A stretch of DNA of 34,236 bases from an uncultured Erysipelotrichaceae bacterium (GTDB lineage Bacteria > Bacillota_I > Bacilli_A > RFN20 > CAG-826). A program made the position numbers and the translations under genes. Within the stretch, counting starts at the first letter, position 1, and each line of letters starts with the position of its first letter. The stretch is from assembly GCA_902773005.1 (NCBI GenBank), contig CACYCS010000032.1:1-34236 (forward strand), read 5' to 3'. Below, one piece after another: positions 18,862 through 28,345 of this stretch. The notes under the pieces are model-generated. The model worked only from the letters and a program-made list of their open reading frames with translations. It had not been told where the DNA came from and searched no databases.

Positions 18862-18876
18862 GTGAAAGCGTTTTCC
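18862..18876. promoter_or_regulatory. cre-like catabolite response element
   Basis: GTGAAAGCGTTTTCC fits the pseudo-palindromic cre consensus bound by CcpA (TGaaANCGnTnnCa-like core). It lies 16 bp upstream of the -35 of the small ORF at 18951, a location usually linked to activation by CcpA. Confidence 0.6.
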
Positions 18877-18892
18877 AACCTCATTTACCCCA

Positions 18893-18920
18893 TTGCAACC
18901 CCTTGCGATAAGACTATGAT
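18893..18920 (+). promoter_or_regulatory. Promoter of the 45-aa ORF
   Basis: TTGCAA (18893-18898), 16-nt spacer, TATGAT (18915-18920), then a strong ribosome site AAGGAGGT at 18936-18943. Confidence 0.65.
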
Positions 18921-18950
18921 GATGCCGTCCAAGCCAAGGAGGTAGAGGAC

Positions 18951-19088
18951 ATGAAAAAGGAAAATAAAGTTCGTAAAGGTCTATTCGGAAAAGAATCCCG
19001 TGACAACCGTTCTGAAAAAGAGACCCAGGGCAACTTCGCCAGCAATCGCTGGACCGTCGCGGCCTTCATTCAAACGTATCGTTTCTAA
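18951..19088 (+). CDS. Small 45-aa basic protein, unknown
   Basis: A complete small gene too short for usual calling. The ATG at 18951 follows AAGGAGGT by 7 nt. The product is highly charged and basic for its first 25 residues (KKENKVRKGLFGKESRDNR), followed by an aromatic, more hydrophobic C-terminus (NRWTVAAFIQTYRF). There is no double-Gly leader, lipobox or membrane helix. A cre-like box, a promoter and a rho-independent terminator frame it as a single-gene unit, arguing that it is really expressed. I do not recognise a family; a peptide signal, small regulator or nucleic-acid binder are all possible. Confidence 0.65.
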   Translation: MKKENKVRKGLFGKESRDNRSEKETQGNFASNRWTVAAFIQTYRF

Positions 19089-19116
19089 TCAAAACCAACG
19101 ACTGACTAACCAAATC

Positions 19117-19145
19117 GCCTCGCCATTCGACGGGGCATTTCTTTT
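19117..19145 (+). terminator. Terminator of the 45-aa ORF
   Basis: GCCTCG (19117-19122) pairs with CGGGGC (19131-19136) across an 8-nt loop, followed by ATTTCTTTT. Confidence 0.75.
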
Positions 19146-19154
19146 GCAAAAATG

Positions 19155-19194
19155 TTTATTGTAGAACGATAAAATTTTATTGTAATACGATAAA
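19155..19194. promoter_or_regulatory. Twin operators for the DUF2975/XRE operon
   Basis: TTTATTGTANNACGATAAA occurs twice (19155-19173, 19176-19194), 21 bp apart, that is two helical turns. Each copy is itself nearly palindromic (TTTATTGT/ACGATAAA). The second copy overlaps the -35 region, so binding would repress. The XRE protein encoded downstream is the obvious candidate binder. Confidence 0.7.
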
Positions 19195-19207
19195 CAGAAT
19201 ATATAAT
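19180..19207 (+). promoter_or_regulatory. Promoter of the DUF2975/XRE operon
   Basis: TTGTAA (19180-19185), 16-nt spacer, TATAAT (19202-19207), embedded in the twin operators. Confidence 0.7.
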
Positions 19208-19225: not shown

Positions 19226-19753
19226 ATGACCATTCGCAGAATCAAAATCATCACCCTTATCCTAGTTGCCTTGTTCGCCTTCGCGAGCATAATATCCGCC
19301 GCGTTTATCGCGCCGGTTCCCTATTTCTATGATTTACATTTTTCGTCTTCGCCTACCCCGCTAGGCCTCGTTGAGATGATTGCGTATCTAGTGTGTTCCT
19401 TGGCGGTCTATTACCTATTGTTTGCTGCTGGTCGGACTGCGTTAAGCATGAAAGGGGACACACTTCTTATTGAATCAATCGCACGTCCCGCTAAACGCGC
19501 AGGCATTGTGCTTCTTTGCGGTTCGATCATGTTCACTTTGTTTTTCTTCGCGTCTCTCATTGCCCGAGCAACTATTTACGATGCCTTTCATGCCGAAAAC
19601 GCCTACGAGGCAATCGTCAGCACTTTGGGATTTGAGTTTGCCTGCGTCATCATCGGGCTTATTGGAATCGCGATTTCGGTCGCGATATTGACATTCGCCA
19701 AAGCTTTGATGGATGGCGAGCGATACAGGCAAGACAGCGAGGCCATCGTATGA
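19226..19753 (+). CDS. DUF2975-family membrane protein
   Basis: 175-aa integral membrane protein with four predicted helices (near residues 8-30, 52-72, 92-115, 135-158), as in DUF2975, a family almost always encoded with a small YozG-like XRE regulator. That is the case here: the stop overlaps the regulator start by 4 nt (ATGA, 19750-19753). The pair is thought to be a regulatory or stress module, but no biochemical function is established. Ribosome site GGAGGT lies 7 nt before the ATG. Confidence 0.8.
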   Translation: MTIRRIKIITLILVALFAFASIISAAFIAPVPYFYDLHFSSSPTPLGLVEMIAYLVCSLAVYYLLFAAGRTALSMKGDTLLIESIARPAKRAGIVLLCGSIMFTLFFFASLIARATIYDAFHAENAYEAIVSTLGFEFACVIIGLIGIAISVAILTFAKALMDGERYRQDSEAIV

Positions 19754-23993: not shown

Positions 23994-25295
23994 ATGATTT
24001 CACGGCCGAAGCATATTGAAGATACCAAGGGACTATTAGGACAACTACCGACAATCGACGCCCCCGTTCCCGATTTTCTTTATCTCGCGACCGATAACGC
24101 GAGGTGCAAGGGGGCGGAGATCTACGTAAAGGAGGGCGATCGCGTCCTGATGGGACAGAAGATCGGCCTTCGCCGCGCCGCGTTTTTCGAGCAGCCCATC
24201 CACGCGACTTGCTCGGGGATATATCTCGGCAAGGAAAAGCATTACCACCGTTCAGGAAAGCTCGTCGACTTCCTGAAGATTCAAAACGACCACCTCGACG
24301 AATGGGACCCTAGCCTCAAGGAAAGAAGCGACGAAGAGATCGCTAAGCTTAGCAAGGAAGATATCATCGAGATCCTTAAGGAATGCGCATCGGTTGGACT
24401 AGGCGGCTCTAGCTTCCCAACCTACATCAAAATGCAGGGTAAGCAACCCATTCATACGATTTTGATCAACGGCATCGAATGCGAACCCTATATCTCCGCG
24501 GACCATCGCCTGATGCTAGAAGACCCCGAATCCATCATCGGGGGCATCCGCATCCTCCAGCAGGCATTCTCCTGCAAGGATGCCCGCATCTGCGTGAAAT
24601 CGAAATACAGCGACCTCCGCCAAGTATATGGCGCCTTCTTGAAGCGTCCCGAGGCGGAAGGGATCTCGCTTTGCCCCGTCGGCAATTTCTATCCGCAGGG
24701 CTGGGAGATCGCGATGATCAAATCCGCGACCGGGATCGAAGTCCCTTCAGGCCACCTCCCTGGCGAATTTGGAATCGCGAACTTCAACGTCTCGACCGTC
24801 TCTGGCATCTACCAGGCGGTCAAATACAATCGCTCGGTTGTGGAAAGACTCGTTTCCGTGACTGGGGACGGCATCGCCTATCCCTCGAATTTCCGGGTAA
24901 GGGTAGGCACCCCACTAGAATATTTGTTGCAGGCCTGCGGCGGATTCGTCAAAGAAGAGGTGCCCAAGGTATTGATTCTAGGCGGCCCCATGATGGGCGC
25001 CTCAATCCCGTCTTCAGATTGCATCGTCACCAAAACGGTCACTAGCTGCATCGTGCTGAACGCGGAAGAAGTGAAGGAAGAGCCTTGCATCCGCTGCGGC
25101 TCTTGCGTCCTAAGCTGCCCAACTGGCCTAGAGCCGCAACAGATCATGCTGGCGGTCAAAGCAAACGATAAGGACCGCATCAAGGCACTTAACCCGCTCC
25201 GCTGCATCGAATGCGGATTATGCACCTATGTGTGCACGAGCAAGATCAGGGTTACCGATTTCGTGCGGAGGGCGAAGATACTCGCGAAGCTATGA
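23994..25295 (+). CDS. rnfC: Rnf electron transport complex subunit C
   Basis: 433-aa peripheral subunit that carries the NADH/FMN-type Gly-rich region (SVGLGGSSFPTYIKM about 134-148), an SLBB-like middle and two C-terminal 4Fe-4S motifs (CIRCGSCVLSCP near 364 and CIECGLCTYVCT near 404). In the Rnf complex it exchanges electrons with NAD(H) and passes them along the membrane chain. Length is usual. First gene of a ten-gene operon; its stop overlaps rnfD by 4 nt (ATGA 25292-25295). Confidence 0.95.
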   Translation: MISRPKHIEDTKGLLGQLPTIDAPVPDFLYLATDNARCKGAEIYVKEGDRVLMGQKIGLRRAAFFEQPIHATCSGIYLGKEKHYHRSGKLVDFLKIQNDHLDEWDPSLKERSDEEIAKLSKEDIIEILKECASVGLGGSSFPTYIKMQGKQPIHTILINGIECEPYISADHRLMLEDPESIIGGIRILQQAFSCKDARICVKSKYSDLRQVYGAFLKRPEAEGISLCPVGNFYPQGWEIAMIKSATGIEVPSGHLPGEFGIANFNVSTVSGIYQAVKYNRSVVERLVSVTGDGIAYPSNFRVRVGTPLEYLLQACGGFVKEEVPKVLILGGPMMGASIPSSDCIVTKTVTSCIVLNAEEVKEEPCIRCGSCVLSCPTGLEPQQIMLAVKANDKDRIKALNPLRCIECGLCTYVCTSKIRVTDFVRRAKILAKL

Positions 25296-26440
25296 TTACC
25301 ATCGTAAACGAAAAATCACCGCACCTGCGCCGCAAGGATTCCCTCGCCCGCATGCTTGCTGACGTCTTGATCGCCCTTGCGCCGACCATCGTTTTCGCGC
25401 TTGTCGTGTATCAATGGGACGCCGCGAGGAACCTCGCCATCAGCTGGGCGACCATGGTCGCTTCCGAAATCGTCTACGTTTTGATCGTCAACCGCATCAA
25501 ATATGACGGCAAGAAGCACACCTTCAAGGAACATCTTGCAGCCGGGTGGTCGAAACTCACGGTCAACAATATCTTGGCTCCAAGCGTGTCCGCCGCGATC
25601 TTCGCGCTCATCATGCCCGCCCGCACCAATCCCTATTTCATGATCTATCCCGCGCTAATCCTAGGAAGCCTATTCGCGATGATCATCGGCAAGCTCGTCT
25701 TCGGCGGGACGGGGAGCAACATCTTCAACCCCGCCGCCGTCGGCATGGTGTTCTCGAAGATCTGCTTCGGCTCGAAATACATCTATCAATCCCGCCCCTT
25801 CTTCATCGTAACTGGTGGCACGCCCCTCACGAATTCCATTGCCGAGGTCCCTGGCCTCAATAGTTTGACTGGCAAGTGGATGGGGATCAACGACGTTCCG
25901 CTAGAGGGCCTATTGTTTGGGCAAGTCGGAGGAACGATCGGCGAGGCGTTCAAGATCGCGATCCTCGTCGGCATGGTGTATCTATTGATCCGCAAGGCCG
26001 CGGATTGGCGGATCATCGTCTCGTATCTATCGACCTTCGTGCTCCTAATGGCCTTAGCAGGCGCCATCATCTGCACGAGGCACGATATCAATTTCTTCCG
26101 CTTCCTCGCGTTCCAATTGCTTTCTGGCGGGATGCTGTTCGGGGTCACGTTCATGCTCACCGACCCCGTCACTAGCCCCATCAATTCGCCAAGTAGGTTT
26201 ATCTATGGCTCGGCTGCGGCCATCATCACTGTCATCATTCGTCTATTCGGCGCACTGCCTGAAGGCATGGCGTATTCGATTCTCATCTGCAATATGCTCG
26301 CCCCGGCCCTAGACTACTACAAGTGGTCCTCGCCCAAGTGGAATAGGCGCTACGTCATCATCCTTTGCGTTGCCCTTGGTATCGCTCTTCTAGCGGTTGG
26401 GCTAGGCTTAGGATTCGGAGGGGAGGTCGTCGCAGCATGA
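25292..26440 (+). CDS. rnfD: Rnf complex membrane subunit D
   Basis: 382-aa integral membrane subunit (NQR2/RnfD family), the putative ion-translocating, FMN-carrying protein. The start is the ATG overlapping the rnfC stop, not the longer open frame. Hydrophobic helices fill most of the sequence; hallmark GGTGSNIFNPAAVG at about 147-160. FMN is normally attached to Thr in an (S/T)GAT motif: here the motif is VTGGTPLT with Thr177 as likely acceptor, so the Ala is replaced by Gly. Stop overlaps rnfG by 4 nt. Confidence 0.95.
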   Translation: MITIVNEKSPHLRRKDSLARMLADVLIALAPTIVFALVVYQWDAARNLAISWATMVASEIVYVLIVNRIKYDGKKHTFKEHLAAGWSKLTVNNILAPSVSAAIFALIMPARTNPYFMIYPALILGSLFAMIIGKLVFGGTGSNIFNPAAVGMVFSKICFGSKYIYQSRPFFIVTGGTPLTNSIAEVPGLNSLTGKWMGINDVPLEGLLFGQVGGTIGEAFKIAILVGMVYLLIRKAADWRIIVSYLSTFVLLMALAGAIICTRHDINFFRFLAFQLLSGGMLFGVTFMLTDPVTSPINSPSRFIYGSAAAIITVIIRLFGALPEGMAYSILICNMLAPALDYYKWSSPKWNRRYVIILCVALGIALLAVGLGLGFGGEVVAA

Positions 26441-26970
26441 ACGAATTCGCGAAGAAAGCCCTGAAGGTCGCCTTGATCCTCGCCTCGATCGGCGGGGTAA
26501 GCGCGATCACCGTTAGCGCGGTCAACCTTTTCACCGCCCCGAAGATCGAGGCGAACCGCAAAGAGAAGGAAAAGAAAGCCCTCAATGAGATCTTCCCTTC
26601 CGCCACAGTCGGAGAAGCGGTGGAAATCAAGCAAAACGCATACACGTCCCTACTGAAATATTGGCCAGTGCAAATCGGAAACGAGGATGCCCGCATCTAT
26701 AGCTGCTCTGGCAAAAACGGCTATGGCGCGGTCAGCCTACTCATCGGCGTCTATGGCGATTATAGCCTTGGACGGATGTCGATCATCGATAATACCGAGA
26801 CCTATGGGCAGACATTGAATCAGAATTACATCGCCCCGTATCAGTATTATGAAGACGGTGAGTCGCGACAAACTGCCCTCGATAACGTCACTTGCGGCGC
26901 CACCTATGGCGCAAAGCTCATCAAAGGCATGGTGGAGCAGGCCGTGGCCCACTACAAGGAGGCAAGATGA
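26437..26970 (+). CDS. rnfG: Rnf complex subunit G
   Basis: 177 aa, one N-terminal membrane helix (VALILASIGGVSAITVSAVN) and an extracytoplasmic FMN-binding domain. The covalent FMN motif is VTCGATYGAK with Thr156 as the expected flavin acceptor (family S/T-GAT; the residue before G is Cys here). ApbE encoded downstream is the enzyme that would load it. Ribosome site GGAGGGGAGG lies within rnfD; start at ATG 26437 overlaps the rnfD stop. Confidence 0.95.
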   Translation: MNEFAKKALKVALILASIGGVSAITVSAVNLFTAPKIEANRKEKEKKALNEIFPSATVGEAVEIKQNAYTSLLKYWPVQIGNEDARIYSCSGKNGYGAVSLLIGVYGDYSLGRMSIIDNTETYGQTLNQNYIAPYQYYEDGESRQTALDNVTCGATYGAKLIKGMVEQAVAHYKEAR

Positions 26971-27752
26971 TGGAAAAGAAGCGTTCCGCCCATTTCGAAT
27001 CGTTCGTCTCCGGCATCTGGAAGGAGAACCCGCTTTTCGTCTCGTTGCTCGGCCTTTGCCCAGCCCTTGCGGTCACGAAATCCATCGAGGCGGCTTTCGG
27101 AATGGGGATTTTGTTCACTTTGGTCCTAGTTTGCTCAAACGTCTTGGTCTCAGCCCTTCGCAAGGTGATTCCAGAAGAGGCGAAGACCCCGTGCGAAATC
27201 GTGATCATCGCGACCTTCGTCACCCTGGTCAAAATGCTCACTGAAGCCATCCTCCCAGAACTCTATAGCACCTTAGGCGTGTTCCTTTCGCTTCTAGTCG
27301 TCAATTGCATCGTATTGGGCCGAAGCGAGGCGTTCGCCATCAAAAACGGAGTGTTCGATTCCTTCCTCGATGGCATCGGCAATGGCATCGGCTACACGAT
27401 CGCCATCATGATCATCGCCCTCGTTAGGGAGGTGTTAGGGACCGGGATGATCACTTTCGGCGAGACATTCACCTTCATCGCTAGTGCCAATGGAGGGCAG
27501 CCGTTCCGCATCTACTTATTAACCGGCCCATCCCCGAGTCCGATCGAAGGGCCCGCGTGGGATTTCTCGATGTCGTTCTTCACTAACCCCGCCGGCGCAT
27601 TCTTAGTGCTAGGGGTCACCCTTGCCATCATCGCCGCGATTCGAAACGGCAAGGCGGAGAAAGCGAAAGTGGATGCTAGGCTCAAGGCGCTTGAAGAGAA
27701 AAAGAGCGCACCCGTGAACGCGAATTCAACGCCCAAGAAGGAGGAGAAGTGA
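26967..27752 (+). CDS. rnfE: Rnf complex membrane subunit E
   Basis: 261-aa membrane protein (Rnf/Nqr family, NqrD/RnfE). Shows ENPLFVSLLGLCPALAVTKS and VNCIVLGRSEAFA, conserved in RnfA/E with the Cys that help hold a membrane Fe-S centre. A charged tail of about 35 residues (KAEKAKVDARLKALEEKKS) extends the C-terminus, longer than in many members. A second ATG follows directly (ATGATG, 26967-26972). Confidence 0.95.
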   Translation: MMEKKRSAHFESFVSGIWKENPLFVSLLGLCPALAVTKSIEAAFGMGILFTLVLVCSNVLVSALRKVIPEEAKTPCEIVIIATFVTLVKMLTEAILPELYSTLGVFLSLLVVNCIVLGRSEAFAIKNGVFDSFLDGIGNGIGYTIAIMIIALVREVLGTGMITFGETFTFIASANGGQPFRIYLLTGPSPSPIEGPAWDFSMSFFTNPAGAFLVLGVTLAIIAAIRNGKAEKAKVDARLKALEEKKSAPVNANSTPKKEEK

Positions 27753-27754
27753 TC

Positions 27755-28345
27755 ATGCAATACCTCGTGGCATTCGTCTTAGGCATCCTCTCCTATGCCC
27801 TCATCAATAACGTCGTCCTCGTCCGCTTCTATGGCATCTGTTCCTTCGTAGGCGTCGGAAACAAGGTGAAATCGGCCGCAAGCATGGGGATCGCCGTGAG
27901 CTTCGTCATCATTTTGGCGACGCTCATCTGCTATCCGATCTACCATTTCATCCTGGTCCCTGCCGGCGTCCCATTCCTCGACACGATCACCTATATCCTT
28001 GTCATCGCTAGCTTAGTTCAGGTGGTGGGCCTATTCATCAAGAAGCATTCGCCCACCTTGTATCGGAACCTCGGCATCTATTTGCCCCTCATCACCACCA
28101 ACTGCGCCGTCCTAGGCGTCGTGACCGAGAATACCGACGCGGGCCTTGGCTTCTTGGAATCGCTCTCCAATGCCTTTGGGACCTCGGTCGGGTTCTTCAT
28201 CACGATCTTCCTGTTCGCTTGCATCAGGGTGAGACTCGAATCGAGCAATGCGCCGAAAGCGTTCAAAGGCATTCCCTTGGCGCTTATCTGCGCTGCCATC
28301 ATGGCAATGGCCTTCATGGGCCTAAGTGGGGTGATCAGCCTATGA
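27755..28345 (+). CDS. rnfA: Rnf complex membrane subunit A
   Basis: 196-aa partner of RnfE with the same fold. Motifs NNVVLVRFYGICSFVGVG near 22-39 and TTNCAVLGVVTEN near 110-122 carry the conserved Cys for the shared Fe-S centre. I choose ATG 27755 over GTG 27749, because AGGAGG (27739-27744) is too close to the GTG and well spaced from the ATG; with GTG the overlap would be GTGA. Confidence 0.93.
   Translation: MQYLVAFVLGILSYALINNVVLVRFYGICSFVGVGNKVKSAASMGIAVSFVIILATLICYPIYHFILVPAGVPFLDTITYILVIASLVQVVGLFIKKHSPTLYRNLGIYLPLITTNCAVLGVVTENTDAGLGFLESLSNAFGTSVGFFITIFLFACIRVRLESSNAPKAFKGIPLALICAAIMAMAFMGLSGVISL

Follow-up and report, generated by a model that had tools for sequence, protein, structure and literature searches.

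An unannotated gene of 45 residues in the window (the whole 34,236-nucleotide stretch of DNA analysed here) is, as its relatives in other genomes indicate, real and conserved. It belongs to a new class defined by its regulatory cassette, in which very small, rapidly evolving proteins of gut and rumen Bacilli, not named as a group before, are united by a conserved promoter switch of the sugar-control type, tandem cre boxes, and not by protein sequence; the function assigned to the peptides is a proposal. In the preferred reading, to which a probability of about 0.5 is attached, the gene stands alone, encodes a microprotein and is switched on by a CcpA-like regulator of the LacI family acting at cre boxes upstream, and its cytosolic product carries a partner-binding C-terminal helix. 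The analysis itself demonstrates the gene, its relatives, selection on the C-terminus at the protein level, the geometry of the promoter, the class of similar genes and the presence of a CcpA-like protein in the genomes; that the boxes activate and do not repress, which regulator acts on them, that the ORF is translated in vivo and that its product binds a partner are what we infer from the sequences. The window locus consists of the following elements.

18863..18875, plus strand: cre-like box TGAAAGCGTTTTC, seen in the sequence, its position relative to the promoter being the same in four loci.
18876..18888, plus strand: second box, degenerate here (CAACCTCATTTAC), offset by 13 bp from the first, from comparison with G003, G018 and G127.
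18893..18898, plus strand: -35-like TTGCAA, from the promoter scan, with a 16-nt spacer kept in four loci.
18915..18920, plus strand: -10 element TATGAT, from the promoter scan, with the transcription start predicted near 18927.
18927..18950, plus strand: short 5' leader with a predicted GUCC/GGAC hairpin enclosing the Shine-Dalgarno sequence (folding, -7.9 kcal/mol, z -3.1).
18936..18943, plus strand: Shine-Dalgarno sequence AAGGAGGT, seen in the sequence.
18951..19088, plus strand: ORF of the 45-residue microprotein MKKENKVRKGLFGKESRDNRSEKETQGNFASNRWTVAAFIQTYRF, with ATG at 18951, a stop ending at 19088 and a conserved C-terminal segment, W34-T42.
19117..19145, plus strand: intrinsic terminator GCCTCGCCATTCGACGGGGC with a T-rich tail, from the terminator scan.

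The first-pass annotation had described a complete transcription unit, and this description holds, with the cre-like site, promoter, strong Shine-Dalgarno sequence, 45-codon ORF and terminator all located in the sequence. Scans of the single sequence found six promoters against 3.1 expected and two terminators against 1.9 expected, both near chance and weak evidence by themselves; the argument had to come from comparison, and it is conservation among relatives that makes the window gene solid. An Rfam scan returned tRNAs only, with no match at the locus.

Related ORFs occur in four other genomes, each with a strong Shine-Dalgarno sequence and with the common C-terminus W-x-[VI]-A-A-F-[MI]-Q-T-x-x-x-stop always equally far from the stop. 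When 60 nearby genomes were searched, weak matches appeared in two congeners; these proved to be complete small ORFs that share this C-terminus, and the motif W-x-[VI]-A-A-F-[MI]-Q-T brought in two more family members, in G127 and G228. These last two loci (L010 and L011) are nearly identical over about 3 kb, with the genomes assigned to different genera, which may reflect recent exchange or a contaminated bin; the two copies were therefore counted as one origin. A five-member profile recovered its own loci at E 1e-18 to 1e-24, as expected since those loci built it, and nothing else better than E 0.01 over 224 genomes, weak matches at E 0.01-1 being taken as chance. The exact motif including the stop has only four matches in the GTDB contig collection (257 Gb), all of them these relatives and all in MAGs of Bacilli (one from a water deer abomasum, two of the RUG series), and none in viral contigs. 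A two-mismatch match in G221 (L049), which lies antisense in an AMP-ligase-like gene without a Shine-Dalgarno sequence, was judged to be chance, and of 152 stretches from an alignment scan tblastn confirmed none.

Each locus has different neighbouring genes, and no linked partner gene was found. Conservation and synonymous/nonsynonymous analysis, named in the first-pass annotation as a check on this gene, speak for it: frame, Shine-Dalgarno sequence and stop are kept in the relatives, and over the 12 codons of the core every one of the six pairs has dS above dN (dS 0.48 to saturation, dN 0.07-0.45), a comparison over few sites. The accompanying suggestion that the peptide is truly made is thereby well supported at the level of sequence, by the conserved frame, Shine-Dalgarno sequence, stop, terminator and promoter geometry together with dN below dS in the core.

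The class to which the gene belongs emerges from the promoter. A second, different ORF of 49 residues lies behind similar boxes in G009 and G010, and across 279 genomes of the order two boxes with a 13-bp period occur at about 70 sites, compared with about 8 in the control. These sites are concentrated in the window's genus and in genus g50, where most precede stand-alone ORFs of 35-56 codons with strong Shine-Dalgarno sequences; outside the two genera they are mostly chance or stand before ordinary genes. A promoter profile, built from sequence only on 28 loci, matches 29 of the 31 genomes of the window's genus, a micro-ORF being read behind the boxes in 27 of the 31, and it finds the window site in its own genome at E=1.7e-7, the window being one of the 28 training sequences. 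Behind 50 of the 59 distinct profile matches stands a micro-ORF with a Shine-Dalgarno sequence (random positions, 1.2%; TATANT sites without boxes, 2.5%); these 59 are partly training loci, and about 25 are new, nearly all of the latter with a micro-ORF. A terminator follows 48 of 56 units, where 2.2 would be expected, and dN/dS points to purifying selection in several sister copies. The papers searched contained no previous account of small proteins under CcpA control or of tandem cre boxes.

Several arrangements around these promoters were observed in addition. Two paralogous microgenes stand in direct tandem, about 400 bp apart, in G009, G010 and G028 (L066, L069 and L142), each copy with a multi-box cre promoter and a terminator of its own. 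Order-mates of family f3 (L106 in G038, L107 and L232 in G050, L230 in G059) have similar tandem cre promoters before 16-codon ORFs, whose conserved, hydrophobic-basic products are MVLFRSILLLIRFFKR and MSVIKSILVLIKFYKR. In genus g7 (L195 in G124, L200 in G134, L218 in G114), a related promoter precedes a conserved protein of 75 residues (MRVYKIKDAYVRNEH...) without a known family. Beyond the order, most profile matches lie at ordinary genes, such as gapA in G390, a genome from another family of the class, where tandem cre boxes and a good -10 element lie directly before the gene (L243), an arrangement consistent with activation of glycolysis.

The peptides themselves are strongly divergent, and 47 of the 56 class members are acidic. 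One group shares the motif YxxxLxxIAxxGPIFxDE, while a second has an acidic tail and a C-terminal A-x-x-Y-A-x-L-S segment. By eye, the window family resembles this second group (SNRWTVAAFIQT versus SNAYIAAVYAQL of other class members), a likeness for which hhalign gives no support; against the YxxxLxxIA..GPIF group the hhalign probability is 0.2%, and profile comparison gave no evidence that the window family is homologous to either of the two groups. A single ancestral gene may have diverged until its copies no longer look related, or the cassette may have picked up new ORFs. The first-pass annotation's statement that the product matches no family agrees with the searches, in which the window peptide had no Pfam or NCBIfam family at E<=10 and the class peptides matched no named family in Pfam, NCBIfam or PHROGs.

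Such divergence behind a constant promoter gives weight to the main rival of a partner-binding microprotein, a dual-function RNA. The RNA would then be the main product, a catabolite-activated small regulator, possibly dual-function, that base-pairs with transporter or enzyme mRNAs, with the ORF secondary and its peptides drifting. Conservation is indeed higher in promoter, 5' leader and terminator than in the peptides; the leaders, which often begin with a hairpin, are more stably folded than shuffled versions (mean z about -1.75 in 40 units); and in the f3 order-mates the ORFs behind similar promoters are only 16 codons long. Precedents also exist. SR1 of the Bacillales is likewise a small stand-alone, carbon-controlled RNA of dual function, encoding the 39-residue protein SR1P, which binds GapA (PMC8152036); it differs in being repressed under glycolytic conditions and in the high conservation of SR1P, whereas the geometry here is of the activation type and the peptides are highly variable. 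VcdRP of Vibrio cholerae is an RNA under a carbon regulator whose 29-residue protein VcdP binds a metabolic enzyme (PMC8672173), but it is CRP-repressed and belongs to an unrelated organism. Against an RNA with a secondary ORF stand the strong Shine-Dalgarno sequences throughout, dS above dN both for the window core and for the majority of G009/G010/G028 comparisons, and recurrent peptide motifs such as YxxxLxxIAxxGPIFxDE in one group; Rfam offers no match. This alternative, though the main rival, is considered unlikely.

For the activated microprotein gene preferred here, the promoter architecture supplies one line of argument. In all four distinct loci, counted on the sequences, the box starts exactly 30 nt before the -35 element and the -35/-10 spacer is 16 nt, while the second box is intact or partial in the relatives compared (G003, G018 and G127). 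Boxes of the form TGAAAGCGYTTNC number 34 in nine genomes, compared with 3 for the reversed control, and precede sugar-type ABC lipoproteins, an ABC ATPase and the microgenes. Their distance to the -10 element is bimodal, with modes at 37-40 and 47-52 bp (37-40 in 20 units, 46-51 in 21 and 41-45 in only 1), a 10-bp phasing counted in 44 units; distances that almost never fall between the two modes indicate helical phasing, typical of activation. A cre upstream of the -35 element marks CcpA activation dependent on the helix face, as at ackA, pta and ilvB of Bacillus subtilis, and the boxes fit the high-affinity CcpA consensus TGAAAGCGCTTTCA given in the same study (PMC3463425). At the window locus, both a cre consensus box and its placement upstream of the -35 element on the correct helix face are found. 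The present system differs from ackA, pta and ilvB in its tandem boxes of 13-bp period, in driving microproteins and not enzymes, in that HPr kinase went undetected and in the replacement of the HPr-contacting Arg.

The regulator of the boxes is probably a CcpA-like LacI protein, as judged by homology. The best PDB matches of this LacI-family protein are to CcpA (E=5e-39, versus 3e-24 for PurR), homologues occur in G000, G003, G018 and G127, and it is conserved in microgene-bearing genomes, although it scores below the strict TIGR01481 cut-off. HPr kinase (PF07475) was not detected in 14 of 14 genomes of family f1, including G000 and G003, and was found in both order-mates of family f3 that were searched; the search also missed the B. 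subtilis control, which should carry the gene, so that absence is likely and not certain. R304 of B. subtilis CcpA contacts HPr-Ser46-P (PMC4591507), and the residue aligned to it in the CcpA-like protein is Tyr. Together, the undetected kinase and the replaced Arg make the classical CcpA/HPr-Ser-P sugar signal doubtful, and the boxes are probably of CcpA type with a signal other than the classical one. The proposed tie to sugar status consequently survives in part: the CcpA-like protein, and the presence of these boxes ahead of an ABC ATPase and of sugar-type ABC lipoproteins, make the link plausible, while the undetected kinase and the Arg-to-Tyr change suggest that it perhaps does not run by the textbook route. 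These same two departures, along with several other LacI proteins present in some genomes, would suit cre boxes that serve in repression or are recognised by another member of the LacI family, but boxes upstream of the -35 element with 10-bp phasing fit activation (PMC3463425), the boxes match the CcpA consensus TGAAAGCGCTTTCA, and this explanation appears rather improbable.

Under activation by the CcpA-like protein, the regulator would sit on the tandem boxes, which repeat every 13 bp and have their centres about 58 and 45 bp upstream of the predicted transcription start, on the helix face suited to contact with RNA polymerase, and would switch the promoter on. A short terminated mRNA with a strong Shine-Dalgarno sequence would yield one small cytosolic protein, made of a variable charged tail and a conserved C-terminal helix (W34-T42), which may dock on a partner protein and adjust carbon metabolism or uptake, in the manner of SR1P, VcdP and SgrT. 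SgrS/SgrT of enterobacteria provides a small peptide that answers sugar status and acts on a PTS permease; it is a Gram-negative system, and the likeness lies in a small peptide answering sugar status, with no sequence relation shown. For the window peptide, only a 15-residue C-terminal helix is predicted (residues 29-43), in a low-confidence AlphaFold model (mean pLDDT 59.5, pTM 0.26). The product was first described as basic at the start, which fits the window peptide (net +6, pI 10.4) but is not a conserved trait, since the relatives' peptides have net charges of -8, -4 and +2, the charge changing sign over an N-terminal half that is not conserved.

Fast divergence might instead reflect specificity in a peptide that leaves the cell or targets membranes or other cells, as a signal, antimicrobial or small toxin. 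Conserved expression machinery around a rapidly diverging sequence would agree with this, as would the 16-residue hydrophobic-basic peptides of f3. Yet inspection of the window family revealed no obvious signal or transmembrane segment of the kind found in a type I toxin or exported pheromone, the N-terminal half carries charged residues, most class members (47 of 56) are acidic, and no recurrent export or immunity gene lies beside the loci; an exported peptide seems decidedly improbable.

For the lineage as a whole, a tentative extension, possible but on balance doubtful, is that a CcpA-like activator uncoupled from HPr-Ser-P drives the microprotein class, with the promoter inherited and the protein rapidly replaced or rewritten, so that the identity of the gene would reside in the regulatory cassette and not in its product. 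Should the regulator indeed function with no HPr kinase, it would represent a variant carbon-control circuit of uncultured Bacilli in rumen and gut, one in which tiny proteins count among the chief outputs. Homology search, the usual way to find microproteins, all but misses this class, which stands out by its promoter; this offers a method for finding others.

Within the window, the near-chance scores of the single-sequence promoter and terminator scans would allow the ORF to be a chance frame or the leader peptide of the 175-residue membrane gene at 19226, a very remote prospect that the relatives already contradict on sequence grounds, with frame, stop and Shine-Dalgarno sequence conserved beside unrelated neighbours, a terminator separating the ORF from 19226, and the 19226 gene having its own promoter-like site at 19180-19207. 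Further along, positions 23994-28345 hold an Rnf-type electron transport operon, annotated by eye and ordinary for anaerobes.
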